Assembly (NCBI RefSeq): GCF_042453785.1
Contig: NC_091677.1
Coordinates: 32,905,001-32,969,000, forward strand
Length of the DNA stretch: 64,000 bases
Reading direction: 5' to 3'
From: Malus domestica
Lineage: Eukaryota; Streptophyta; Magnoliopsida; Rosales; Rosaceae
Shown here in pieces: positions 8,601-51,312 of the stretch. Made by a program: the position numbers and the translations under genes. Numbering within the stretch: the first letter of the stretch is position 1; the number at the start of each line of letters is the position of its first letter. The notes under the pieces are model-generated. The model did no database searches and had not been told where the DNA came from. It saw only the letters and a program-made list of their open reading frames with translations.

Positions 8601-10416
8601 CCTAACCTTAAGTCCGGGTGAAGAAATTTATCCTAGTTTGATCTTAGTGTTAACCTTGAATGCCTGCACCTGTCATGTTTCAATCTGGTCTCGGTTATTT
8701 AAATCTATCTCCACCATCTTGAGTCCATATATTTTGTTTTAATTTTGCCTTCTGCTAATAAATCTGCAAGTCGCCCATATTTTTAAATTCTTCTTTAACA
8801 CCAATTGAGATATCAAATTACATGCACGTCATAAAATTTGCCAATCTACTTGAGTGCACTAGCACCTCTTATGAATAGACACTGAAGTTTAAAATGTGTG
8901 GGTGTTGTCCTCCACCCTTTTATAGTAATCCTTCCTTTGTATAATATATTTGCTTACCACCACTTGCAGGACATAAATGAAGAATGGATATCAGACAAGA
9001 CTCGATTCTGTTATGATGGTTTGAAGAGGCAGAGGTTAAATGACCCTATGATTCGTGGTGCTGATGGGCGCTTTAAGCCTGTGAGCTGGCGTGATGCACT
9101 TGCTGTAGTTGCCGAGATGGCTCATCAAGTTAAACCAGAGGAGATCGTTGGGGTTGCTGGTCAGCTATCTGATGCTGAGTCTATGATGGCACTGAAAGAC
9201 TTCTTAAATAAAATGGGGTCAAACAATGTCTGGTGTGAAGCAAATGGTTCGAACTGTGATGCTGATCTTCGATCCGGATATATTATGAATAGTACCATTG
9301 CTGGTCTTGAGAAAGCAGATGCTTTTCTGTTGGTTGGTACCCAGGTATGTTTCTAGCCATCTAATCTTAGTTTCTGCAGTCCTGTGCAAGTGATTTGCAC
9401 CTGTCTCTTACATGTTTGTATGACATGCTAAAGATTTGTGGATGCGTGAGTGGATTAATTGTGTTTTTAAGTATAATCGCGTAGAGTAATTCATACTTTC
9501 ATATTATGTTTACCAGCCAAGGGTAGAAGCTGCTATTGTAAATGCTAGAATCCGGAAGACGGTGCAAGCTAATCACGCCAAGGTTGGGTACGTTGGCCCT
9601 CCAGCTGATTTCAACTACGATCATGAGCATCTCGGCACAGGCCCTCAGACACTTCTAGAAATTGCTGAACGTCGTCACCCATTTTCCTCGGTCCTCACAA
9701 ATGCTAAAAACCCTGCCATCGTTGTTGGTGCTGGGGTCTTTGAGAGAAAAGACAAGGATGCAATTTTTTCTGCTGTTGAAGCCATGGGAAAATACGCTAA
9801 TGTTGTAAGGCCTGATTGGAATGGATTCAATGTACTGCTTCTCAAAGCCGCCCAGGCTGCAGCACTTGACCTTGGGCTTGTGCCAGAATCTGAAAACAGC
9901 ATCGAGTCTGCAAAGTTTGTTTACCTGATGGGCGCTGATGATACCAACTTGGAGAAGGTTCCAAGTGATGCATTTGTGGTTTATCAAGGGCATCATGGAG
10001 ACCGAGGTGTGTATCGTGCTAACGTCATCCTTCCTGCAGCAGCATTCAGTGAAAAGGAAGGAACATACGTAAACACTGAAGGGTGCTCACAGCAAACAGT
10101 ACCTGCAGTTCCGACTGTCGGTGATGCCAGGGATGACTGGAAGATAATTCGGGCTCTATCTGAGGTGGCAGGCGTGCGGCTGCCATATGATACGCTTGGG
10201 GCAATCCGATCCCGGATCAGGACAGTGGCACCAAACATTTTGCAAGTAGACGAGAGAGAGCCAGCTACCTTTTCATTATCGATTAAGCCCAAATCCACTC
10301 AGAAAGTGGATACCACTCCATTTGGGACTGCAGTTGAGAATTTCTACATGACCGATTCGATCACCAGGGCTTCGAAGATAATGGCACAATGCAGTTCGTT
10401 GCTCCTGAAGAAGTGA
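5699..10416 (+). CDS. NDUFS1: NADH-ubiquinone oxidoreductase 75-kDa subunit, mitochondrial
   Basis: Five coding exons at 5699-6131, 6588-6834, 7860-8154, 8970-9344 and 9517-10416 join in phase to 749 residues, the usual plant length. This is the iron-sulfur subunit at the tip of the matrix arm of respiratory complex I, which passes electrons from NADH toward ubiquinone. The N-terminal 70 or so residues are rich in Ser, Arg and Ala, as in a mitochondrial presequence. Cluster ligands are visible: C110, C121, C124, C138 ([2Fe-2S]); H170, C174, C177, C183 (His-Cys [4Fe-4S]); C222, C225, C228 and C272 (in CPVGAL) ([4Fe-4S]). The molybdopterin-oxidoreductase-like domain follows ([18 protein letters not shown] onward). 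It ends in VAPEE-type plant sequence altered to LLLKK. The start ATG follows a long open leader and is the only one that gives the presequence. Upstream it shares a promoter region with nicastrin. Confidence 0.96.
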
Positions 10417-16160: not shown

Positions 16161-18245
16161 TGTGACAGCCCGTCCCGTATTATCATTTTCGAAAGTGTGA
16201 AATTACTAAATACCCTTAAACGTTTTAAAGAATTAGAACTTTAGGGTTTGTTTAATTACCCTAGTTTTTAAGCGTGGATGATTTTTGTACGTTTTGTTTG
16301 CTCGTGTTTGAAAGATTGTGGCTTGTGGACCACATACACTCATGGGATACAGAGAAACCATCCCTTTTTCTTCTTCTTTCCCGTGATTCCCTCAAACACT
16401 CACTCTCACTCTCTCTCTCTCCCTTCGAACACTCTCTCTCTCTCTCTTCATACGGACCATCATCAAAGTTCATCAAAACTTCACAGATCGAAGAAACAAA
16501 GATCACCATCGTCTTCGTCTCGTCGATACGAGTTCATCCATACCTATTTCAGGTAAGAACTTCAACGTTTTCACGTCCAACCACTCACCTCCGAGTTTGA
16601 CACTATTCATCAACTTTGTATTGGTTGATTTTTAGGAGTTTTCAAGCTTGTAGGAAGCTTCTTGAGGTCCTTAGGAGGCTCGGCGTAGTTCGTTGGAGGT
16701 TTTTGGACGTAAGAATATCGAGATCGAAAAGTTCAAGTTTGACCCGTGCCTTTCGAGTCGTTTTCCGGCCAAACCACGGAGAGTTAGACGTCGTGCGAGG
16801 TACCATTCTCTTCGTCTCTTCGAGAAATACAACTTTCGTTTTTGTTTCACCCAATTTCGTTGAGTATTAAAGAAGTTATACTCATTTGAATCTTACCCAG
16901 TTTCCGGCGAGTCCGACGGCTTTCGAGGCTTTTTACGGTGAATTATCGGCGATTTAAGGGTCGAGAAGGGTATAGATATGTTTGTCTCGTCAATATCTTC
17001 AGTTTGATATAAAGTACGTTGAAAATGGTGAAGAAATGACAAAGTTATGGCAATTTGAAAAACTGCCCAGAAACCGGCGAAACCAGTCCGGCGAGCCGAG
17101 GAAGAAGACGCGCGTGGGCGCGCGTGGACCGCCACTTTGGGCGGCGCGTGGGGGCGCGTCCGGCATCCGACCGGCGCGTGGTTTGTACGTACGCGTTAGT
17201 GTCGTCGAGTAGATCGATTTCATATATTTATACCCTAGGTTTGAGCAAATTATGAGCGTTTTATTTAGGTTTCCGTTATGTGCTTTAATTAATGTTATTT
17301 AGTTATTTCATATATAGGGGAAACTTATTCCGAGGATTTTCGAGGCCAAGCTAGGCTCGGGGGCTACGATTTAACGACGTACTTGTGAGTGGGTAGTTGT
17401 TTATACCTATATATATTTATAGTTTCCATAAATGCGTATTTACTTCATTTTTACGCCTATATTGCCTAGTATCATTATTATGATATAAATTGTGATAAAT
17501 GCTGCTATATGGTTGTGATATTACTGTCATGGCATTCATACATACTTGTGTACATGCTCATCTTGCTGCACCTGGTGTTAGTACTCGCCCCAGGGCCAGG
17601 GCCAGTCCTTCACGTGTATGTTCACATCCGCACCGTTCGCTCACCTTGGATCCAAGTTTAGGTGCCAGTCTTGTCGGGTAGATTGCATTAGGCGATCTGA
17701 CTTGTATGTGATGTGCTTTTGCACCAGTTTTCACGTGATCGTAGTACTAGAGCATATTGATTACACCCAGTCCTGTTCGTGTCAGAAACCATCTGTCCAA
17801 ACTTGTGTGTCAGCTTAGATGGATGAGCACTTAGTTGTATTGATTATCACTTGATTATTATTGTGGCATATGATACATCATTGACTTGGCATAATTCTGG
17901 TTATATGGTTTATATATATTGGATTTCATACTTACGTAGTATGTTTTGAGGAAATTATACTTGTTTTACGGCGAGGGGTTAGTATATTCAAAGATAAAGG
18001 TTTTCTTATAAGCATTGTTTTACTGACCCACTCAATTTTGTTTTGCGCCCCTCCATGTATAAGATAACAGAGCTTTGGTGGCCACGAGGAATCCAACGAT
18101 GTTCTGATAGAATTCATAAAAGTAGGACTCACCCTCGGGTGTTTCATCTTAGTAATTGTATTCTTTAAAGCTTTCGAAATGTGTAAATGGTTACGTCACT
18201 CTCACGTGACGGCCAACATGCCCTCCTTCGGGATGGGGTGTGCCA
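16161..18245 (+). mobile_element. Solo LTR of a Ty3/gypsy element, inserted at the GFA start codon
   Basis: The segment starts TGTGACAGCCCGTCCCG and ends GGATGGGGTGTGCCA, with TG..CA ends, and is flanked by the 5-bp duplication CCATG (16156-16160 and 18246-18250). Unit 2 has the empty site GTCCATGCCTCACG near 30400. Its ends match the LTR of the rearranged gypsy element at 21970-24162 (reverse orientation), of similar length (2085 versus 2193 bp). No internal region is present, so it is a solo LTR left by LTR-LTR recombination. Confidence 0.9.
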
Positions 18246-18318
18246 CCATGCCTCACGATTTTAAGTCTTCAACAGCGCTAATGAACAGGATTATTTCTTC
18301 GAATTTCTAAATGCACAC

Positions 18319-18900
18319 TGACACACCCCGATCCTAAAATCAAGGCGTGATGGCCATCAAGTGAGCGTGACGTAGCCAAAAGTGCGACACGGAAGCAAGA
18401 GATAATAGAAATATGAAGGAATTTAAACCAACCACTAGCAGTAATAACCTACTAGCATAAAAGAGTGAGTTCTAAAGTAAAACACACGAATTCAGGGCGT
18501 AGGTATCAAGTGCAGTCTAGTAGGACTATAATTAAAAGTACAACACCTGCAGGTGAGTCCTACATGCAGAACGTCTATCAGAACGCCGAAAAAGACCTCG
18601 TGAGCAACCAACTGCTAACTAGAACCTGGAGGGGCCCAAAACAAAGATGAGTGGGTCAGTAAAATCAAAGATTTTCCAAAACATTTCCTTTAAAACATTT
18701 CTAACCCCTCACCGTAAAACCTATATACTTTTCCAGAAATTTATTATAAAACATATATACATATATCATCAAACTCAGCTCACAATCTTTCAAAGCTTTT
18801 CAGAAAGAATATGCCATGCCATGCCATGCCAAAATATAATATGAATGCATTGATATAAATCAGGTGAAATAATAAATCAACCGGAGACTCTACAATGGTC
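18319..18900 (-). repeat. Truncated LTR (3' end only) at left border of the gypsy element
   Basis: It matches 21970-22539 nearly base for base in the same orientation, including ATGCCATGCCATGCCATGCC, and then stops abruptly after CTACAATGGTC, where a forward LTR end begins. Confidence 0.85.
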
Positions 18901-19120
18901 CTTTTAATTATAGTCCTACTAGACTGCACTTGATACCTACGCTTTGAATTCGTGTGTTTTACTTTAGAACTCACTCTTTTATGCTAGTAGGTTATTACTG
19001 CTAGTGGTTGGTTTAAATTCCTTCATATTTCTATCATCTCTTGCTTCCGTGTCGCACTTTTGGCTACGTCACGCTCACGTGACGGCCAACACGCCTTGAT
19101 TCTAGGATCGGGGTGTGTCA
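18901..19120 (+). repeat. LTR 3' end, forward orientation
   Basis: It is the reverse complement of about 21970-22190 and ends GGATCGGGGTGTGTCA directly before the primer binding site. Only the last 220 bp of the LTR are present. Confidence 0.85.
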
Positions 19121-19121
19121 G

Positions 19122-19137
19122 TTTGGTATCAGAGCCT
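19122..19137 (+). other. Primer binding site (tRNA-Met type), forward arm
   Basis: TTTGGTATCAGAGCC follows the LTR end by one base and contains the TGGTATCAGAGC core complementary to initiator tRNA-Met. The mirror copy is at about 21953-21968 on the minus strand. Confidence 0.85.
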
Positions 19138-19199
19138 AGGTTGCAGTCCTGTATAATTGTTAATGCTCTAATGATCTTTTGATGTTTTCTGTCAGAATT

Positions 19200-20210
19200 A
19201 TGCCGCCTCGTAGGGAACGTATGGAATCCCGCCGTAGTTCTGAACCTAATTTCCCTGATATCACTCAGTTAGGGGAAGCAATGGCCTAGGCTTTTCAGAA
19301 TGCAATTTGTCCTCCTCCCCCTCCTCAGAGGACACCTCTGGAGACTATGTACAATTTGAAATTGGATCGTTTTATGGGTAATGAGGGTCACGAAGGGGCA
19401 GAGAAATGGCTAGACCATATTGAGAAGACGTTTCAGGTGATGCAAAGTCAGGGGAACTTTCCTGCTGATAGGTGGGTTGAGACCACTACCTGGTTTTTGG
19501 GTCGAGAGCCGGCAGGTTGGTGGAGGAATCAAACTCAGTTTATGTCCCCAGAAATGGCAGCTGATTGGGAAGTATTTAAAGAGAATTTCAAGAAAAGATT
19601 TGTCCCTCCAAAGTACATCGATCGCAAGAAACAGGAGTTTACTCGTTTGAAGCAAAGGAATATGTCAGTGCACGAGTACTACAGAAAGTTTACTGATTTG
19701 TCTCGTTATGACCCTGATACAGCTGGTAATCAGGTAGAGATGCTTCGACGTTTCAAGTTGGGAACTAAGAGAAAATGGCGGACTTTTGCCAGTGCACTTC
19801 CCTGCGCTGATTATCATGAGTTTTTCGAAATTTTGGTTCGGATGGAGGACTCCGACAATCTTCCTAGTGACAGTGAGGATGACGAGGACGAGAATGATGG
19901 TCAGAAGAAGGATGATAAAGGTAAGGGTATCTCCATTCCGGGACCTCGTAAGACGCAGAATTTTAAGAAGAGTGAAGCGAGTTCGAGTTCTTCTAGTGGA
20001 GGATATAGTATTACTGGCCCGAGGAGAGGTGGTGGAAGATTTTCTGGTGGACCCAGATTTCAGAAGCAGAGGGATTCCGGTGGTGCTAGTGGTTCTGGTG
20101 CTCCGTGGTGCCGCCGTTGTAATTTTCGTCATCATGGTGAGTGCATGAATGGTGGTGGTGCTTGTTATAATTGTGGACAAATGGGACATCGGGCTTCTCA
20201 GTGTCCCTAG
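19200..20210 (+). pseudogene. Gypsy gag, forward arm, with stop codons
   Basis: Reading from ATG at 19200, the frame meets TAG at 19287-19289 and then runs open to TAG at 20208. It encodes a retrotransposon gag domain (ETMYNLKLDRFMGNEGHEGA, then WWRNQTQF and RFVPPKYIDRKKQEFTRLKQ), an acidic and serine-rich linker, and a CCHC zinc knuckle (CYNCGQMGHRASQC). Both stops are TAG where the mirror copy has CAG, the change expected from deamination of methylated C in CHG context. Gag forms the particle that packages element RNA. Confidence 0.88.
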
Positions 20211-20644
20211 GTCAACAGAGACCTCAGCAGACCACTATGCCACCTCCAGCGCCGATTCAGCAGAGCTTTGGACCAGGCAGTTATGGCCAGTCGAGTCGTG
20301 GTGGTGCTTACCACTACCAGGGTGATGCTGCTCCTTATGCTTCCGGATCGTATCAGTATCCCCAGGATCCTTATTCTCAGACTTGGTATTCCCAAGACCT
20401 TGGGGGTTATTCTTCTTATTCTTCCATGCCAGCTGGTGGATCTCAGTGGCATCAGGGAGGTCAACCCCGTTAGGGGGAAGTTGCTGCTAGTGGTGTAGGA
20501 TCATCTAGGTAGTCTAGTCAGTCAGGCCAGGGACGTACTTCTCAGGGGCGAGGTAATCAAGGCAACAGAGGTCGTGGTGGACGACAGCAAGCTCAGGGAC
20601 GTGTTAATCACATCTCACTGCAAGATGCTCAGAACCATCCAGAT

Positions 20645-20851
20645 TTGATCATGGGTACGTTAAATGTTCTTGGTCATTTTGCTAGAGTTTTGATTGATTG
20701 TGGTGCTACGCATTCTGTGATTTCTCATACGTTTGCTCAAATGACTCAACCTCACCCTTCACCTCTAGGATTTGATTTAGAGTTTGCCATGCCTAAAGGA
20801 GATAAATGTTATGTTGATAGTGTGTATCTTGGGAGTCCAGTGATGGTAGAG
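20645..20851 (+). pseudogene. Retroviral-type aspartic protease fragment (loop of the inverted repeat)
   Basis: The frame contains VLIDCGATHSVISHTFA, the active-site segment of a Ty3/gypsy protease (D-C-G in place of D-S-G, a known variant), then FDLEFAMPKGDKCYVDSVYL. It stops at the inversion junction near 20852, before the rest of the polyprotein. A stop codon at about 20471 separates it from gag. Confidence 0.8.
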
Positions 20852-20852
20852 G

Positions 20853-21897
20853 GCATAGTGGTCTGCTAAGGTCTCTGCTGACCCTGGGGACACTGAGAAG
20901 CCCGATGTCCCATTTGTCCACAAGTATAACAAGCACTACCACCTCTCCTGCACTCACCATGATGACGAAAATTACAACGGCGGCACCACGGAGCACCAAA
21001 ACCACCAGCACCACCGGAATCCCTCTGCCTCTGAAATCTGGGTCCATCAGAAAATCCTCCACCACCTCTCCTCGAGCCAGTAATACTATATCATCCACTA
21101 GAAGAACTCGAACTCGCTCCATTCTTCTTAAAATTCTGCGTCTTACGAGGTCCCGGAATGGAGATACCCTTACCTTTATCATCCTTCTTCTGACCATCAT
21201 TCTTGTCCTCGTCATCCTCACTGTCACTAGGAAGATTGTCGGAGTCCTCCATCCGAACCAAAATTTCGAAAAACTCATGATAATCGGCGCAGGGAAGTGC
21301 ACTGGCAAAAGTCCACCATTTTCTCTTAGTTCCCAACTTGAAACGTCGAAGCATCTCTACCTGATTACCAGCTGTATCAGGGTCATAACGAGACAAATCA
21401 GTAAACTTTCTGTAGTACTCGTGCGCTGACATATTCCTTTGCTTCAAACGAGTAAACTCCTGTTTCTTGCGATCGATGTACTCTGGAGGGACAAATCTTT
21501 TCTTGACTCTTTAAATACTTCCCAATCAGCTACCATTTCTGGGGACATAAACTGAGTTTGATTCCTCCACCAACCTGCCGGCTCTCGACCCAAAAACCAG
21601 GTAGTGGTCTCAACCCACCTATCAGCAGGAAAGTTCCCCTGACTTTGCATCACCTGAAACGTCTTCTCAATATGGTCTAGCCATTTCTCTGCCCCTTTGT
21701 GACCCTCATTACCCATAAAACGATCCAATTTCAAATTGTACATAGTCTCCAGGGGTGTCATCTGAGGAGGGGGAGGAGGACGAATTGCATTCTGAAAAGC
21801 CTGGGCCATTGCTTCCCCTAACTGAGTGATATCAGGGAAATTAGGTTCAGAAGTACGGCGGGATTCCCTACGTTCCCTACAAGGCGACATAATTCTG
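20853..21897 (-). pseudogene. Gypsy gag, inverted arm, frameshifted
   Basis: It mirrors the forward gag (19200-20242) on the minus strand. It keeps CAG where the forward arm has TAG, but has a small deletion near 21505 that shifts the frame, so the protein breaks after MVADWEVFKES. The start is MSPCRERRESRRTSEPN. The two gag copies point toward each other. Confidence 0.85.
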
Positions 21898-21969
21898 ACA
21901 GAAAACATCAAAAGATCATTAGAGCATTAACAATTATACAGGACTGCAACCTAGGCTCTGATACCAAAC

Positions 21970-24162
21970 TGACACACCCCGATCCTAGAATCAAAGCGTG
22001 TTGGCCGTCACGTGAGCGTGACGTAGCCAAAAGTGCGACACGGAAGCAAGAGATAATAGAAATATGAAGGAATTTAAACCAACCACTAGCAGTAATAACC
22101 TACTAGCATAAAAGAGTGAGTTCTAAAGTAAAACACACGAATTCAAAGCGTAGGTATCAAGTGCAGTCTAGTAGGACTATAATTAAAAGTACAACACCCG
22201 CAGGTGAGTCCTACATGCAGAACGCCGAAAAAGACCTTGTGAGCCACCAACTACTAACTAGAACCTGGAGGGGCGCAAAACAAAGATGAGTGGGTCAGTA
22301 AAATCAAAGATTTTCCAAAACATTTCCTTTAAAACATTTCTAACCCCTCACCGTAAAACCTGTATACTTTCCCAGAAATTTATTATAAAACATATATACA
22401 TATATCATCAAACTCAGCTCACAATCTTTCAACGCTTTTCAGAAAGAATATGCCATGCCATGCCATGCCAAAATATAATATGAATGCATCGATATAAATC
22501 AGGTGAAATAATAAATCAACCGGAGACCCTACAATGGTCATGACGGCTGATTTTATAGCTCAATATCCCACTCAGCCGGAGTCACCACAGTGACCTATAC
22601 GGCCATACTCTGCACGTCACTCGGAACTACGTAAGGTAGTCTGTACGATGAAAGGTGTAAGAATACGCTCTAGTGCTTCTCTCATCAATCATGGCGCGCA
22701 TAACTAAGGTCACCCACTAGTCGGAATCACATCTAGTGATCTATACGACTAGCATGTCGAAACCCTCACATGGTCTGTACGACAGTCACCTACTTGGATC
22801 CAAGGCGAGCCTGCGGTGTGGTGAATAATATAAGCACTAACACCTAGGGTGCAGGTTATGAGCTTTCAATGCAATTCACATAAATAAATCGTATGAATAA
22901 TGTAAAAACTCACTTGTGCGTCCACAACGTCAATTCATATATATATGCATCAATTATCAATTCAAATATCTCATCAATTGCATGCATGGCATTTTAAAAC
23001 ATATTTTCATATAAATGCATTTTCTGGGAAAAACAGTAGTATATAGGTAATACGAAAACAAAGCTGCCCACTCACTGGTAAGTCGATGGGTCGTAACCCC
23101 CGTGACGTCCCTGGATGCGCTCGTCCTCGGGATAGGTGTCACCTATATGCGAAACAATTATAAAAACGTTAATTAAAACACATAACCAATAATTCGAAAT
23201 AACTTTTCATACGGTGCTCAATTTGGGTATGTGAATATACCACAACGACCTACTCGACGTCACGAACGACGAGGAATTTTTAGAAAATTTTTTGGAAGCC
23301 CCACGCGCCGTCATGCGCCGGCCAAGGCACGGCCAGACGCGCGGTTACGCGCAGGCCACGTGTCGCGCGTGTTGTCTCCTACCCTGGGCTCGTCGGACTG
23401 GTTTTTCCGGTGGCCAGATTCCGACGAATTTTGTAATTGCTTGTTCTCCTTCGTTTCTCAACCGTTTTCTTCGAATTTTATATCAATTTGAAGCCCTCAA
23501 CATGTAGAATCACGATAGACTAGTTTCAAGGTCTAAAATTCACTAGATTTTACCTGGGGAAGCACGATAATTCGAAAATTTTGAGAAACTCCGTTCTCGG
23601 TCCTCCGACGTCCAAATGTTACCAACGAAGTACCCCGAAGCTCGTGAGGATGTCCTTAAGCTCACTGTGAGCTTGAAATTCCCTGAAATGTAAGATTTCA
23701 CGTGTGCATGAACAGTGCACATTTTCGGGGTTAGGGTTCCACGACGATTCCGAGGGTTTCACTTCCTAAAACTAGTACCATTCAACTCAGAATATCAAAA
23801 GGATGAAGAATCATACCTTATTTGCTTCGATCCGCAAAGTTTTGAAGGGTTTTGGTCTTGTCCGTACTATTTCGAGAGGGAGAGAGTGAGAGAGAGTCGT
23901 GAGGGAAGAGAGAGAGAAAGCACGGGGGAAGGGAGAGAGAGCAGGGAGTGCGTGTGTGTGTTTGTGTGGTCCAACGCAAATCCACATCATCAATTTCTCA
24001 TCCTAGCTCCCTAACCACACACAAAAAATATCCCACATAAGCAAAGTCCAAGGTTAAGAATTTAAGTCTAAATAATGCCACACACACATACCTTAATACC
24101 CGTCAAGGGTAATTCCGTCATTTCACGTCCCCGATATAAAAATCCCGGGACAGGCTGTGACA
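21970..24162 (-). repeat. Full LTR of the rearranged gypsy element
   Basis: 2193 bp, on the minus strand starting TGTCACAGCCTGTCCCGGG and ending GGATCGGGGTGTGTCA, followed by the primer site. It is the only complete LTR in the element and is placed to drive transcription leftward into the inverted repeat. It is homologous to the solo LTR at 16161-18245. Confidence 0.88.
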
Positions 24163-24316
24163 CACACGCTCTGACCTGTCAATAAACAGCACATCATAAC
24201 AATTTGTTGCAGTAAATGAAACCCAAATATACAATTGCAATTCCAGTTCATTCAAGTCGATCCTATTCTAGTTTAATGGTAAGTCAGTACGGAACCGAGA
24301 TTTAGATTACAACCTC

Positions 24317-42531: not shown

Positions 42532-43093
42532 AAATGATTGAAAGCACTTTTGGTAAAATTGTTTTTGGGTTTTCAAAGTAGTTGAACTATTTTATTTAAG
42601 AAGCACCAGTTTTGTGTTTCTTGTAGAAAACACTTCAAGTGATTTTCTAGGATTTACTTGCATTTTTATTGAGGATTGGTTTTAAAAACGCTTCATCAAA
42701 AGTGTCTCGGTCATTTTGAATAAATTTCCAAATAAGCCCTTTGGCATGTTTATTTTAAACATAACTCACTCCACTCTTTCCAATTTTGAAATAAAATTCC
42801 CAAGTTGGGTACCCATCTAATTGATAAAAAATGACTGGATAATAAAACTATATATGCAACCAAGGTCGTTTGAAATCGTCTCTGCAATTATTTATATTGG
42901 GATTGTTTCCTGTGCAAGTTATTGAAATATCAAACAACTAATTAATTAAAGTGATCAGACAATGGCATTTTTTTTTTTTTTTTTTTTTTTTGTGGATGAT
43001 CTCCATTGATAAGGTTGAACCAACATACAAAAAAGAAAAGAGAGGAGCTGGTTTATATTAGTTGTTTTCCTTTTGGCCAGAGACATCACCAAT
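42532..43093. other. Right part of an interrupted MITE, then NLR upstream region
   Basis: 42537-42738 is the remainder of a MITE whose first 27 bp are at 38729-38755 (GGGCTTGTTAGAAGTG, reversed right end GGGCTTATTTGGAAATT). The LARD-like element split it. A run of about 28 T (42964-42991) precedes the NLR gene. No TATA box was singled out. Confidence 0.6.
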
Positions 43094-45957
43094 ATGGCTG
43101 AGGCTGTTGTTTCGTTTGTGGCTGTAAGGCTCGGATACTTCATTCAAGAAGCCAAATTCTTGTATGGAGTCGGGGATATCGTTGACTTTGCACAAACCGA
43201 GCTACAGTTTATGAGGAGCTTTCTGAAAGATGCAGATAAAAGACAAGAGCATGATGAAACACTACGTATCTGGATTGCTAAAATTGTAGATGCTGCTTAT
43301 GATCTCGAGGATGTCGTTGAAGCTTATACGTTGAAAGCGGTTTTAAAGAGGAGAGGGGGTATTACGATTACTCTGAAAAGGTTTTCTTGCATCTTGAAAG
43401 AAGGAGTTGACCTTCACAAGATTGGTACAGAAATTGAGAACATTACCACCAGAATTTCAAATTTGCGGTCGAGTTTGGAAACTTTCAACCTAAGAGAAAT
43501 AAGGGAGGACGGAGGTGCCGGTTCCTTGCAATTGTACGAGAGGCAACACCTACTGAGGCGAAGTTACTCTCATGTTATTGAACCTGATATCGTTGGGTTG
43601 GAGGACAGTGCGAAGGAAGTGATTATGCAATTGATGAAAGAAGACAAATGCCTTGTTGTTTCGATTTGGGGCAAGGGCGGCTTGGGAAAGACCACTCTTG
43701 CGAAACATGTCTATCATCATAGTGAAGTTCGGCACCACTTTGTTGGTTTCGCTTGGGTGTGCGTATCTCAAAGATGTCAAGTTAGAAGTGTTTGGGAAGC
43801 AATTTTATTTAAACTCATGTCTCCTACCACTGAGCAAAGAGAAGCAATTGCAAAATGGAGGGATGATGAAATAGCCCAAAAGATTTGTCTTACGCTTCAA
43901 GATTCGAGATGTTTGGTGGTCCTTGATGACATTTGGAGCATCGAGGCGTGGGAGTCTTTAAAAGCTGCATTTCCACACGGGGGAACAAAGAGCAGGATAT
44001 TACTCACCACTCGCAAAAAAGCAGTCGCTTTGTGTGCTGATAGAAATGGTTTCCTCTACCAACCCCGACCACTAAATGAGAACGAAAGTTGGGAACTGCT
44101 CAGTAAGATAGCAATTGCTGGAAAGGATGATACAAGTATTTCCTCACCAAACTCTTCTATGACTTTTTATTATTATCATTTTAGTTATCGCAAGAACTAA
44201 TTTCGGAAAATATATAGCTTTTCTAGTGCAACTTCGAACTCAAAACTTCACGTGTGAGGATTGATCATAGCTCAGGAAATGAAAATTGAACTTTAGAAAA
44301 CAAGATGCATTTGACATTCAGTTTTGTTAAAGATATCAATTGATACCGATTTTATTCTATTTAACTACTGTTAGATTGATTGTTTGATTGTTTATAATTA
44401 GGCTAATTGCTTGCAGTAAGCTATTATTTAATTTAATCCTAGTTTTTCAGATTTACTTGTACAAATTTCTCCAAGAAAATGCTATAAGAACTCTCCTGAT
44501 TCTAACTTTTTCTTTTCTCCTTTTTTGTGACCTGCTTTCTCGATCCGTATAACTTATAATAAGATCCAGAAAACAAAGTTCATAGTGTATTGTCATTTGT
44601 CAAAAATATTGTTAATTGTTTACTCTTTTTGTTTTTGTTTTCTACAATTAATTACTGATTTTCTAAGTGTTGTTAATTCAGTTTTTTATTTTTTCAGACT
44701 CTAGAAGCTATGCTAAGAAGAAAGAATTAGGAAAGAAGATGCTTCATCACTGTGGAGGTCTCCCATTAGCCATCACTGTGCTTGCAGGACTACTAGTTAG
44801 AAAAGACACGGAGAATGAATGGGATATGATGTTAAAAAATGCTGAAGAATACATAAGAAGAGGTGAAGGTCACGAAGAGGAATACGCTGGTTCATTGTGG
44901 ATCTTGAAATTGAGTTATGATGATTTACCGTATTACTTGAAACTATGCTTTCTATATTTGGCTCATTTTCCTGAGGATTCATCCATACCAGTGAAAAGAC
45001 TAACTCAGTTAGGCAGAAGGTCTTGTACCTTTCACACAGCTAAGACCTGCAGGTTCATTGGAAACAATGGAGATGTATCATACAGCTGCTTCAATGAATT
45101 GGTGGAAAGGTGTATGGTTCAAGTTGGAGATCAAGGTTCGATTAGAAAGATCAAAACTTGCCACCTTCATGATCTTTTGCGAGACTTGTGCTTGTTAAAG
45201 GCAGGTGAGGAAAACTTTCTCCAGATTGTGAATTTTTCGCACAGAAATGAGGCAATGTATCTTTTTTCTTCTTCCACGGTAACCAAAGTAGCATCAACGG
45301 ATAAAGTTAGAAGACTTGCAGTCTATTTGGAGGGGAGTGCTGATAAACTGGTTCCATCAAGAGATGAAAGTAATGTTCACATCAGGTCTTTGTCATACTT
45401 TACCCCGGTTGACTGGACACCAAGAAATATAAAGTTACTACGGCCAATTTTCAAGGACTTCAAACTGCTTAGAGTTTTAAAATTGGAAAACATGAAAAGA
45501 GTAGTAGAGCTATCGAGGGATATTGGGAGCCTAATCCACTTAAGGTTTTTAAGTTTATTCAACAGTGATATAAGACGGTTGCCATCATCCATAGGTAATC
45601 TGTTATGTTTGCAAACTCTAGATTTACGCTTATATGGCTCAACAGTTATCCCAAATGTTATATGGAAGATGGACCAACTGAGACACTTATATTTACCCTT
45701 AAACTACAGTATAAGTGATAATGATAAACTAAGATTGGCTCCTCTCCGCAATTTGCAGACGTTACAATATGTTTCAACTCGCTATTCTGATTTGAATGAA
45801 CTTGCTGATTTGATAAGTCTGAGGAAACTGTTTATAGATGTGTACGAATGTGATTTGAGAAATCTGGAGAAAATCTTCAAGTCTACAAGCCTCAAATTCA
45901 ACCTTCTTCAGTCCTTATCTGTGCGTAACTTGCGTGTGCAGGACTCGAGAGTTATAT

Positions 45958-46155
45958 TGTTGAGAAAGTCAAGGATCATCATCAAGATACTTGCCATATA
46001 TTGTAATTAATTATATTCCTATTTTGTATTATGAGCTGTCTATTAGTAGCTAGTTTGTAGGAATTGATTGAAAATATATGACTACATATAGTAGTATTGT
46101 AAAGAGATTATTCATTCAATAAGAATCAGTGAATTACTACCTTCCAAAATTTACA
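45958..46155 (+). repeat. 5' LTR of the copia element
   Basis: 198 bp, identical by eye to the 3' LTR. AT-rich, with CTACATATAGTAG and AATAAGAATC near its end. Confidence 0.95.
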
Positions 46156-46204: not shown

Positions 46205-49200
46205 ATGGTGGAGGATTCAACGTCAGCAATGGCTAAACTTGAACCATCCAGTGATCCTGCTAGTCCTTTCTTCGTTCATCATTCTGATCACCCGGGAATG
46301 ATGCTCGTTTCAACCAAACTTACCGGTGAAAATTATGGCACTTGGTGTCGTTCCATGTCAATTGCACTCAGTGCAAAGAACAAATTAGGGTTTGTTGATG
46401 GAAGTGTTGAACAGCCATCTGCGAAGACAAAGCCCACAGAATCTGCTCTTTGGCAACGGTGCAACGACATGATCCTTATGTGGATTATCAATACACTTTC
46501 CAGCGACCTGGCCACCAGTGTGGTGTACATGACGACAGCCAAAGATGTTTGGGATGATATTCGAGAACGTTTTTCTCAACAAAACGTGTCTCGTCTCTTT
46601 GAAATCCAACGTGAACTTGCACGTCTTACACAGAGTCAACAACCTATCAACGTGTATTTCACCAAGCTTAAAGGTTTGTGGGATGAGATGGATTCCTACC
46701 AAACTTTAAAGCCGTGTTCTTGCGGGGCTGTTCAATCTAATAACGAACAGGTGGAGAGGACCAAGGTTTTGCAGATTTTAATGGGGTTAGACGACTCGTA
46801 TTCTGCGATTCGTGGGCAGATCTTACTTATTCAACCATTGCCTTCGATTCGATCTGTCTATTCCATGTTGACACAAGAAGAGAAGCAGAGAGGCATGGCT
46901 GTTGGGCCTGGCCTCGTTGAACCTGCAGCTATGGTTGTTCAAACGAACCGTGGCAACAATGGCAACCATGGAAAAGGAAGATCATCCGAGAGGAAGCCAC
47001 TGCATTGTTCATACTGCGATAAGGATCATCACGTTATTGAAACGTGTTGGAAGCTCCATGGCTATCCACCGGGACATCGTCTTCATGGTAAGTCAAACAG
47101 TTCGAGTGGTTCTGGTGGGCGCTCTACCGCTGCACCGAGCGGCAAACCAGCTGTCAACAACGTGGCCTCTCCCGCTGCACCGTCCATGCCCAACCTCACC
47201 ACCGACCAATTTCAGCAACTCTTATCCATAATGAGTCAAAAGATGGGTCTTGATTCTAAGGCTAATCTAGCAGGTGGGCCTTCTTCTTTCCAATGGGTTA
47301 TAGACAGTGGTGCCACTGACCACATATCTAGTCTCTCATTGACTAATGCAACCTCCAATCCTCCTCTACCACCTGTGGCATTACCTAATGGGACTCGGGT
47401 TCCCATCAATTCTATTGGCACCTACAATTTTGGTTCCCAAATATCTCTTTATAATGTGCTTGGCATAGCTTCTTTTTTGATCAACTTAATTTCCGTTAGT
47501 CGGATCACTCGATCATTGAGATGCTCAGTAACCTTTTATCCTGATTTTTGTATTTTACAGGACCTGGAGACGAGGACGATGATTGGTTGGGGGCGACAAC
47601 ATAATGGACTTTACTATTTGGTGGACTCCAAAGGGCGAACATCACCTACACCTCCCAAGGTTTTTTCCGTCACGTGGCACCAACGACTTGGTCATCCTTC
47701 ACCCTTGAGACTCCAACTTTTAGCTAAACATTTTCCTGAAATTTCCCTTTCTGAAAATAAACCTTGTGACATTTTCCCTTTGGCAAAACAAACTCGATTG
47801 TCTTTTGGATTAAGTCATATTAATACTAAGCATGCTTTTGAACTTATACATTGTGATATTTGGGGTCCCCATAGAGTAGCATCCCGTTCGGGTGCTCGTT
47901 ATTTCCTTACTATTGTTGATGATTTTACTCGTTGCACTTGGGTTTACCTCATGCGTCATAAATCAAACACTCAATCTTTGCTTAAATCTTTCATTGCCTA
48001 TGCCGAAACACAATTTCACCACAAAATTAAAACCATTAGAACTGACAATGGCGGTGAATTTGTTTCTATGCTTCCTTTCTTTAATGATCATGGCATACTT
48101 TTTCAACGCTCTTGTGTTTCCACCCCTCAACAAAATGGGGTTGTGGAGCGAAAGCATAGACATATTCTTCAAACTGCACGAGCTTTGCATTTTCAGTCAC
48201 ATATTCCCTTGCATTTTTGGGATGAATGCATTCTCACATCCATTTACCTCATTAATCGCATTCCCACCCTTCTCTTATCGGGTCTTACGCCTTATGAGAA
48301 ATTATTTGGTCACCCTCCTTCATATACCCATTTACGCACTTTTGGGTGTTTAGCATATGCCACTAATCTTCACCCCCAACATAAGTTTGATGCTCGGGCT
48401 AAAAAATGTGTTTTCATTGGGTATCCTTTTGGCCAAAAAGCTTACAAATTATATGATCTTCATTCCAAACAAATTTTTACTAGTCGAGATGTCACCTTTC
48501 ATGAGCATATTTTTCCATTCCACCCAAATCCTCACCCAAATCCGCACCCACATACTGACCCAAACACTGTCCCACACACCGACCCCTATACTGATCCCCA
48601 TGCCGACCCAGGCCCACTTCCCTCTCCACATGTTACCGTCCCCATCCCTTCCCACATAGACCACCACCCTACCGACCCGGGCCTTTCTCCTGGCCCAGCA
48701 CCAGTCCCCAAACTACCCACCTCTGCTACTGACGGGCTTGACCAAGTCTCGGTTCTTCCTGGTGGGCCTGCTCTCTCTCTGGACCCGTGTCCACCATCTG
48801 CCCAGCCTGCCGCTGCATCCCCTGCTCCTTTGCGCCATTCCAGTCGCATCCGAGTTCCGCCGACCAAGCTCCATGATTATGTTTGTCCGACTATTCCGTT
48901 GCCCCCCGCCAACTCCTCGCCTTCCGGTCCTCGTACAAGGTATCCTCTTTCTAATTATTTGTCCTATCAAGGGCTCTCTCCTAAGTATCAATCCTTCATT
49001 GCACAATTGTCTACTGTTTTGGAGCCTAACAGTTATACAGAAGCTGCCAAACATCCCCATTGGTGCAAGGCCATGGACGAGGAACTCCAGGCTCTTCAGG
49101 CCAATGACACTTGGACACTTTCTCCTCTCCCTTCCGGGAAGGTACCCATTGGTTGTCGGTGGGTTTATAAAATCAAAAGAAAATCTGATGGGAGTATTGA

Positions 49201-50557
49201 GCGTTACAAAGCTCGGTTGGTTGCTAAAGGTTACACCCAATTGGAAGGTATTGACTATCATGATACCTTTTCTCCCACTGCTAAACTTGTCACTTTCCGC
49301 TGCTTACTTGCTCTTGCTGCTACTCACTCCTGGTCACTTCATCACCTTGATGTCCATAACGCATTCCTTCATGGTGATCTCATGGAGGAAATCTACATGC
49401 TTCCCCCGCCTGGTCTTCGGCGACAGGGGGAGAATTTGGTGTGTCGCCTTCATAAGTCAATTTATGGGTTGAAGCAAGCTTCTCGGCAATGGTTTTTCAA
49501 GTTCTCACAAGCTATTCGATCAGCTGGTTATGTTCAATCTAAAGCAGACTACTCACTTTTCACTAAGAGAAGAGGGAAGTCATTTACTGTGCTTCTCATC
49601 TATGTGGATGACATACTGATAACGGGGAATGACTTGAAAGCAATTGATGATCTCAAATCTTTTTTTAATACCAAGTTTCGTATCAAAGATCTTGGTAATT
49701 TGAAATATTTTTTGGGAATTGAGGTGGCACGATCGAAACAAGGTATTTTCATTTCACAAAGAAAGTATTTATTGGATATCCTAAATGATGTTGGTTTTCT
49801 AGGATCACGGCCTGCAAGCTTTCCTATGGAACAAAATCTCAAATTACTCCCTGATGATGGGCATGCATTGGATGATCCAGTCAAGTACAGAAGATTGATT
49901 GGTCGGTTGATATATCTCACTATAACCCGACCGGATATTACATATTCAGTTCATTTATTGAGTAGATTCATGCAATCACCTCAAAAGTCTCATTATGAAG
50001 CTGCTTTACGCATCTTGAAGTATTTGAAAGGCACACCAGGGCAAGGCATGATGTTTCCATCTCAAAATTCATTGAAGTTAAAGGCATATTGTGATTCCGA
50101 TTGGGCAGGATGTCCTACCACTCGACGTTCCACTACTGGTTATTGCGTTTTCCTTGGAAATAGCCTTATTTCATGGAAAAGCAAACGACAGAAAACTGTA
50201 TCCTTATCTTCTGCTGAAGCAGAATATAGATCCATGGCAGCAGCATGTTGTGAGCTTGCATGGCTCCAAAGCCTTTTTCGAGATCTTCAAGTTCAAGACC
50301 AAGGGCCGGCTACCTTATTATGCGACAATCAAGCCGCTCTTCATATTGCGGCAAATCCGGTATTTCACGAGCGAACAAGGCACATTGAGATTGATTGTCA
50401 TTTTGTTCGAGATAAGATTATGGAAGGAAAAATTGTGACGGGATTTGTTCCTTCCATATCACAACTTGCTGATTTGTTCACTAAAGCTCTTGGGAAGGAA
50501 AGATTTCATTCTTTGCTAGGCAAGTTGGGAGTTCGAAACATTCACTCACCAACTTGA
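46205..50557 (+). CDS. Ty1/copia Gag-Pol polyprotein, 1450 residues
   Basis: The frame holds all copia domains in order: UBN2-type gag (about 30-250), a CX2CX4HX4C zinc knuckle (C268-C281), protease with WVIDSGATDH (Asp367), integrase, reverse transcriptase with YVDD (1133-1136) and RNase H (AYCDSDWAGCPTTRRSTTGY, SSAEAEYRSMA). Integrase core residues Asp551, Asp614 and Glu648 are present. One oddity is in the integrase N-terminal zinc site: H492 and H497 and C521 are there but the fourth ligand, normally Cys in a CxxC, is Phe524 (CDIF). A proline/histidine-rich variable linker (HPNPHPNPHPHTDPN) lies between integrase and reverse transcriptase. The product would be cleaved by its own protease and carry out reverse transcription and integration in cytoplasmic particles and nucleus. 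No stop or frameshift is present. Confidence 0.95.
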   Translation: MVEDSTSAMAKLEPSSDPASPFFVHHSDHPGMMLVSTKLTGENYGTWCRSMSIALSAKNKLGFVDGSVEQPSAKTKPTESALWQRCNDMILMWIINTLSSDLATSVVYMTTAKDVWDDIRERFSQQNVSRLFEIQRELARLTQSQQPINVYFTKLKGLWDEMDSYQTLKPCSCGAVQSNNEQVERTKVLQILMGLDDSYSAIRGQILLIQPLPSIRSVYSMLTQEEKQRGMAVGPGLVEPAAMVVQTNRGNNGNHGKGRSSERKPLHCSYCDKDHHVIETCWKLHGYPPGHRLHGKSNSSSGSGGRSTAAPSGKPAVNNVASPAAPSMPNLTTDQFQQLLSIMSQKMGLDSKANLAGGPSSFQWVIDSGATDHISSLSLTNATSNPPLPPVALPNGTRVPINSIGTYNFGSQISLYNVLGIASFLINLISVSRITRSLRCSVTFYPDFCILQDLETRTMIGWGRQHNGLYYLVDSKGRTSPTPPKVFSVTWHQRLGHPSPLRLQLLAKHFPEISLSENKPCDIFPLAKQTRLSFGLSHINTKHAFELIHCDIWGPHRVASRSGARYFLTIVDDFTRCTWVYLMRHKSNTQSLLKSFIAYAETQFHHKIKTIRTDNGGEFVSMLPFFNDHGILFQRSCVSTPQQNGVVERKHRHILQTARALHFQSHIPLHFWDECILTSIYLINRIPTLLLSGLTPYEKLFGHPPSYTHLRTFGCLAYATNLHPQHKFDARAKKCVFIGYPFGQKAYKLYDLHSKQIFTSRDVTFHEHIFPFHPNPHPNPHPHTDPNTVPHTDPYTDPHADPGPLPSPHVTVPIPSHIDHHPTDPGLSPGPAPVPKLPTSATDGLDQVSVLPGGPALSLDPCPPSAQPAAASPAPLRHSSRIRVPPTKLHDYVCPTIPLPPANSSPSGPRTRYPLSNYLSYQGLSPKYQSFIAQLSTVLEPNSYTEAAKHPHWCKAMDEELQALQANDTWTLSPLPSGKVPIGCRWVYKIKRKSDGSIERYKARLVAKGYTQLEGIDYHDTFSPTAKLVTFRCLLALAATHSWSLHHLDVHNAFLHGDLMEEIYMLPPPGLRRQGENLVCRLHKSIYGLKQASRQWFFKFSQAIRSAGYVQSKADYSLFTKRRGKSFTVLLIYVDDILITGNDLKAIDDLKSFFNTKFRIKDLGNLKYFLGIEVARSKQGIFISQRKYLLDILNDVGFLGSRPASFPMEQNLKLLPDDGHALDDPVKYRRLIGRLIYLTITRPDITYSVHLLSRFMQSPQKSHYEAALRILKYLKGTPGQGMMFPSQNSLKLKAYCDSDWAGCPTTRRSTTGYCVFLGNSLISWKSKRQKTVSLSSAEAEYRSMAAACCELAWLQSLFRDLQVQDQGPATLLCDNQAALHIAANPVFHERTRHIEIDCHFVRDKIMEGKIVTGFVPSISQLADLFTKALGKERFHSLLGKLGVRNIHSPT

Positions 50558-50762: not shown

Positions 50763-51312
50763 TATATCAATGATAGTGTCAAGTTGTCGTCAGATATGCA
50801 AGTTGTGTCTGCAAGGGCTAACCACAGAGCTACCAAATGACCTCCAGTACTATCCAAACCTCATCAAGTTATCATTAATTGAAACTGATCTCAAGGAAGA
50901 CCAGATTACAATTCTGGAGAGGCTGAAAAACTTAAGAGTTCTACACCTTAGCTGGAGTGCTTTTGAGAAGAACTCAAAGACATTGAAATTCTCTGCTGGA
51001 GGCTTTCCTCGTCTTGAATTTCTTTCACTTTCCTGCATGGACGAAATAGAGGAGTGGATGGTGGATGAAGGAGCCATGCCTTGTCTTCGCCAATTGTATA
51101 TTGAGCACTGTGGAGGCATGAAGACAGTTCCCGATTGGCTGAGGTACATTACAACCCTCAGGGAATTAGCCATCACTGGGATGTCAAAAGCATTCTACAG
51201 TAGACTTGAGAAAGGAGGAGCAGACTTCTACAAAATCCAACATGTGCCTTCCCTTGATTTTGGGCCAGCCATTGAGGAGTTTCTCTCATCACGTACGTGG
51301 AATGTATCATAA

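Follow-up and report, generated by a model that had tools for sequence, protein, structure and literature searches.

The 64,000-nucleotide (nt) stretch of the Malus domestica genome analysed here (contig NC_091677.1, positions 32,905,001 to 32,969,000; hereafter the window) contains, on its minus strand at 18319-24162, a Ty3/Gypsy-type long terminal repeat (LTR) retrotransposon copy, delimited by direct reading and by a repeat search. We propose that this copy is a defective element whose DNA was probably scrambled by two strand switches in reverse transcription, before integration. Indeed, two switches in one cycle followed by normal integration would account for the single target-site duplication (TSD), the two proper termini, the common source of the parts and the similar age of inversion and insertion.

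Organisation of the rearranged element

Read on its own strand, the first half of the element consists of a full 5' LTR, a primer site, gag and a first junction (J1); the second half consists of an inverted protease-gag-primer site-LTR end, a second junction (J2) and the last 582 nt of the 3' LTR. Reading from 24167 to 18314, we named the segments C (full 5' LTR), D (gag down to 20852), B (inverted stretch) and A (LTR remnant). The features are as follows, with the evidence in brackets and LTR positions counted from the LTR end.

18314-18318: left TSD, CACAC (sequence)
18319-18900, minus strand: A, the LTR's last 582 nt, truncated 3' LTR of the minus-oriented element (LTR comparison, tree)
18900-18901: junction J2, LTR -582 and LTR -220 head to head (LTR comparison, genome pattern search)
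18901-20241, plus strand: left arm of the long inverted repeat (repeat search, alignment, folding)
18901-19120, plus strand: B, the LTR's last 220 nt, inverted relative to the element (LTR comparison)
19122-19136, plus strand: primer-binding site TTTGGTATCAGAGCC, inverted copy (sequence, LTR-primer-site pattern)
19200-20210, plus strand: B, broken gag copy with CCHC knuckle (profile matches on 19347-20207)
20242-20851, plus strand: single-copy loop between the arms, gag end and protease fragment (RVP_2 match)
20852-20854: junction J1, microhomology GGC, protease (plus) against gag (minus) (comparison with relatives, genome pattern search)
20852-22189, minus strand: right arm of the long inverted repeat, comprising gag, primer site and LTR end (repeat search, alignment, folding)
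21954-21968, minus strand: primer-binding site in the element's own orientation (sequence, LTR-primer-site pattern)
21970-24162, minus strand: C, full 5' LTR of 2193 nt, TGTCACAG...GTGTGTCA, facing the inverted repeat (sequence, LTR starts of relatives)
24163-24167: right TSD, CACAC (sequence)

The primer-binding site TTTGGTATCAGAGCC is presumably initiator-tRNA-Met-like. The arms are 97% identical around a loop of 610 bp, and the repeat search reported them as two blocks, 18898-19583/21507-22192 at 98% and 19588-20211/20883-21506 at 97%.

Relatives of the element were taken from 21 fetched loci (L009 and L011-L030), L010 being omitted as a second fetch of the L011 copy. L017 was left out of the gag and arm sets, its match being split by a gap, and L013 out of the 582-nt LTR set, its match being too short; L009 supplies two LTR rows, so that the comparison sets contain 20, 20, 21 and 22 other rows. 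The motif TGTCACAG that opens LTR C also opens all 17 relative LTR starts read; the outside flanks differ for 16 of these, and the remaining one, from L009, belongs to a 3' LTR and follows internal sequence.

A previous examination by a model of the letters alone (the sequence-only reading) had described an inverted LTR end-primer site-gag stretch around a loop of about 610 bp, a single full LTR (21970-24162) pointing into it, and a CACAC duplication around the block. The repeat search bears out the first of these, and the LTR, with its length of 2193 nt and its start shared with the relatives, the second; the duplication is present on both sides. That the block integrated as a single molecule, as this reading also held, is supported by the single 5-bp TSD around the whole rearranged element, by correct LTR termini (TG...CA) and by the similar divergence of the arms and of the LTR pair.

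Directly to the left of the TSD, 17950-18245 corresponds to the end of a related, more diverged LTR in plus orientation, pieces of which match at 72-83%. No primer site was seen after this LTR end, which is perhaps an older solo LTR or a 3' LTR.

Junction sequences

At the protease site corresponding to J1, the relatives carry GGGCGTAG (18/21) or GGGTGTAG (2/21), L020 failing to align through, and none of the 20 relatives read there carries GGGCATAGTGG. The reverse strand of gag at J1 is GGTGGCATAGTGG in the eight relatives printed (8/8). The exact microhomology is therefore GGC, 3 bp long and lying within a 7/8 match; the sequence-only reading had taken GGGCATAGTGG for a short block shared at the junction, but this is the junction sequence itself, and no more than GGC is shared exactly.

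J2 (18900|18901) is a second junction absent from that reading. It shows 0 bp of homology against the full LTR C or, for a source carrying the family state, as many as 2 bp (CT), and creates a smaller inverted repeat, 18314-18541/18898-19125, at 96% identity. Other copies with the same junction, which the sequence-only reading had suggested looking for, were searched in the 651-Mb genome at up to 3 mismatches: the J1 and J2 patterns each occur at one site, and a reversed control at 0.

An LTR terminus joined to internal sequence, the hallmark of autointegration, is found at neither junction. Since both J1 and J2 join internal sequence and not LTR termini, neither of them is an insertion end or a product of autointegration. 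Both single-copy loops attach at the left, a pattern we considered as indicating that snap-back synthesis began there; the opposite direction of synthesis is suggested by the better 3'-end match at J1. We also considered J2 as the 5' end of an RNA, as in self-primed minus strong-stop DNA. In the window LTR, a TATAAAA begins 18 nt upstream of the J2-matching place, where the relatives mostly carry TATAGAAT or less; as this motif is not kept in the relatives and the spacing is short, this candidate was dropped as evidence.

Common source and relative age of the parts

In a tree of the arms with 20 other rows, B groups with D (support 0.990), and in a tree of the LTR end with 21 other rows, A groups with C (support 0.971). 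B and D share 7 states found in none of the 20 other copies, the highest value among 231 pairs, the runner-up having 6. A and C share 4 states found in none of the 21 other rows. A genome search with arm D gave arm B as the best other match (97%, next 96%) among 40 scored of 1000 candidates. Odd states were tallied without gap columns and end columns. At the 32 gag differences between the arms, the odd state lies in B at 18 and in D at 14; from the 20 other copies, 17 of these odd states are absent, whereas 13 recur in one or two of them and 2 in three or four.

The arms B and D differ at 32/1115 gag sites and 2/216 LTR-end sites (34/1331 together), and the LTR pair A and C, compared over 21970-22539, at 17/570 sites plus one 12-nt gap. 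The pairwise ratio of arm to LTR-pair divergence is 0.86 (95% confidence interval 0.47-1.63, p 0.65). Because arm divergence matches LTR-pair divergence, the inversion appears about as old as the insertion, within wide error. With substitution rates of 1.3e-8 and 4e-9 per site per year, the two events would date from about 1 million years ago at the former rate, or about 3-4 million at the latter.

Origin of the rearrangement

We suggest that the nascent strand twice jumped to a template of opposite sense, provided by its own or by a co-packaged genome, with one switch falling between gag and protease (J1, at GGC) and the other within the LTR (J2). The termini of the product would still have been a proper U3 start and a proper U5 end, and integrase could thus have inserted it normally with a 5-bp duplication. 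The outcome would be an intact 5' LTR and a truncated 3' LTR flanking the inverted LTR end-primer site-gag-protease copy. That the switching took place in the particle rather than in the chromosome, and which strand was growing, are inferred. Both components have precedents in the excerpts of the literature on which our comparisons are based: 24/88 HIV-1 proviruses with an intact 5' LTR and a partial 3' LTR were attributed to reverse-transcription misalignment, a few having inversions (PMC9278108), and template-switched insertions with one TSD are described among grass LTR elements (PMC1950507).

Several observations weigh against this origin. No start site can be fixed at J2 when the window LTR is set against the aligned relatives. 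The junction homology of 0-3 bp, which is usual for templated break repair, also fits end-joining repair with templated filler, and the clock test is compatible with an inversion only about half as old as the insertion. LTR-end differences amount to 2/216 between B and C, 7/216 between A and B and 7/218 between A and C; moreover, a T at column 44 is common to B and C and absent from A and 22 other rows. Copying of B from C after the insertion would produce such a shared derived state, although it concerns a single site and arm-to-arm gene conversion is possible. Finally, among the 570 shared LTR sites the odd state lies in A at 13 and in C at 5 (one site odd in both), which looks uneven for parts of one age.

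The main rival draws on several of these points. A normal element would have inserted and soon suffered a break or deletion between gag and 3' LTR; repair would then have added an inverted patch of about 1.95 kb (18901-20854), copied from the same or a sister element and ended by end joining. The outer ends, which match a normal minus-strand insertion, the scant junction microhomology and the closeness of B to C (one common derived state, and 2/216 LTR-end differences against 7 for A) all agree with it, and we hold it to be possible. It requires an early second event plus a long inverted templated patch, however, and such filler should postdate the insertion, whereas the measured ages are equal within wide error. 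Strand switching during reverse transcription, the template switching or snap-back put forward in the sequence-only reading, thus stands as the best fit, but the junction homology cited there for it is mostly absent, and early post-insertion repair gives like junctions.

The other explanations are much less probable. That parts of different copies were fused in the assembly is very unlikely: assemblies tend to err at repeats, but the TSD is intact, and the arms group together yet lie about 3% apart, with over half of the differing states absent from the other copies examined, so that a false duplication of one stretch and a join of random copies are both poor fits. A history in which two elements inserted separately in opposite orientation and deletions followed would recall the nested antisense insertion, a potential source of LTR hairpins, seen for Arabidopsis EVD (PMC11624286, excerpt); with no LTR terminus or TSD at J1 or J2, a single TSD around the whole and both halves from one source, we regard this history as extremely improbable. 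Nested insertions, autointegration and a simple fold-back after a chromosome break were rejected, as no LTR terminus lies at either junction; the outer ends, being the two proper ends of one minus-strand element within one TSD, also disfavour all three. A search for the empty site with the joined flanks gave 0 sites at up to 3 mismatches, which is uninformative with one genome.

Coding content, element family and neighbouring features

The left-arm gag matches PF03732 (E 3.4e-13) and the CCHC knuckle PF00098 (E 4.1e-07) on 19347-20207, and the protease fragment of the loop matches RVP_2 (PF08284, E 3e-14) on 20600-20848. A Ty3_capsid match in the window fell below its cut-off, and the right-arm gag, over its open stretch (21447-21911), matched no Pfam domain at E 0.01. 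Neither gag copy is intact: B is interrupted by an in-frame TAG at 19287 and lacks 1 nt close to its end, and D has a 4-nt deletion. The window copy stops in protease, the pol part being absent. Given the lack of everything after protease and the two broken gag copies, it should be unable to move by itself.

The order reverse transcriptase-RNase H-integrase that is proper to Ty3/Gypsy was met in one relative, L009, which was scanned in three pieces and contains RVT_1, RT_RNaseH, Integrase_H2C2 and then SH3_Tf2-1, with rve below its cut-off. Nine of the 20 aligned relative rows (L011, L015, L019, L021, L022, L024, L027, L028 and L029) have, upstream of the conserved GGACCACTGTAGGG sequence, an additional LTR block resembling GTGACTCCGGC...GGTCAC; the window LTR is without it, and the two forms represent LTR subtypes.

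Elsewhere in the window, a 1450-aa open frame at 46205-50557 is Copia-like by eye, and the open frames flanking it (43073-46010 and 50770-51312) look like pieces of an NBS-LRR gene. We take the open frames at 8898-10416 to resemble the 75-kDa subunit of NADH-ubiquinone oxidoreductase.

Rarity and comparison with known systems

Genome-wide, 613 LTR-primer-site junctions of the family group were found at up to 3 mismatches, including the window's two; among the 177 distinct junctions listed of these, the window pair is the only opposite-orientation pair within 30 kb. By eye, no other opposite-orientation pair was seen among 40 scored of 1000 gag candidates. A full-text literature search showed, among the entries listed, no title or abstract start on an LTR element self-inverted within one TSD, a weak negative since most subscription papers lie outside its scope.

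In its architecture the copy resembles Mu killer, here in an LTR element, and its asymmetric LTRs recall those of HIV. Mu killer is a rearranged copy of maize MuDR in which about 1300 bp of coding region are duplicated in inverted orientation; a long hairpin RNA was proposed for it (PMC3440606, excerpt). An inverted duplication of transposon coding region is likewise present in the window copy. The two differ in that Mu killer silences in crosses, originates from a DNA transposon and has a hairpin whose proposed start is in a flanking gene, whereas the window copy is an LTR element and carries its own LTR. The same excerpt also mentions short antisense transcripts of Mu killer, which cannot form the large hairpin, as a proposed silencing route.

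HIV-1 proviruses with asymmetric LTRs similarly have an intact 5' LTR and a 3' LTR truncated from inside, which was attributed to one faulty reverse-transcription cycle; according to the excerpt (PMC9278108), their usual lesion is a deletion, whereas the gap of the plant copy is filled by an inverted copy of about 1.95 kb. Complex LTR elements of Triticeae, rice and maize are also rearranged within one TSD and ascribed to template switching, but those described in the excerpt are direct-orientation fusions with a third LTR and no strand inversion (PMC1950507). In an Arabidopsis rdr6 line, a study that sought LTR hairpins as triggers reported one nested antisense EVD insertion, inverted LTR-element sequence being considered there as a hairpin silencing trigger whose small interfering RNA (siRNA) output was, in the part of the text available, untested (PMC11624286); that case is one insertion inside another, in contrast to one integration with an internal inversion. 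Finally, self-primed minus strong-stop DNA of HIV-1 also involves self-primed copying of LTR-end DNA in reverse transcription (PMC4668388, excerpt), but it is an aberrant retroviral cDNA, and no start-site evidence links J2 to such a product.

Predicted hairpin and possible silencing role

An RNA driven by the full LTR is predicted to fold into a hairpin made of gag and LTR-end sequence, about 1.34 kb long. When the 4221-nt sense strand from the J2-matching LTR position to the left end was folded, 1319 of the 1780 predicted pairs linked the arms (-3020 kcal/mol), so that the long hairpin RNA of the sequence-only reading holds as a folding prediction. By folding and by analogy, such a hairpin could feed Dicer if the 5' LTR were transcribed. 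Arm B contains 1321 21-mers. Arm D has 767 of them in identical form, and 653 of the 767 have an exact match in one or more of the 21 fetched loci of other copies; siRNAs from the hairpin copy would thus match family members.

A Mu killer-like silencing role for this copy may be entertained by analogy only. As a matter of function, separate from origin, the copy would be transcribed from its LTR today and its hairpin siRNAs would silence the family, as proposed for Mu killer. The full LTR faces the repeat, the fold is predicted and the 21-mers are shared with other copies, but no TATA is conserved at the candidate start and the arms have drifted about 3% apart, and we consider an active silencer improbable. 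Still more doubtful is the broader idea that errors of reverse transcription create, in one integration, a self-promoted hairpin LTR copy that seeds the silencing of its family, and that this happened here. If true, the trigger of silencing would arise from the family's own replication machinery, without nested insertions or the promoter of a neighbouring gene, and the layout of such a self-promoted hairpin would be a promoter LTR, an inverted LTR-end/gag stretch and an LTR end with a possible terminator.

There is continuing debate over how plants first recognise active LTR retrotransposons; among the triggers proposed are hairpins made from rearranged copies. This locus provides a roughly dated hairpin candidate, and its copy-specific sites would make it possible to attribute small-RNA reads to it. 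Should the copy be silent, it still offers a clear natural case of strand inversion in an LTR element within one target duplication.

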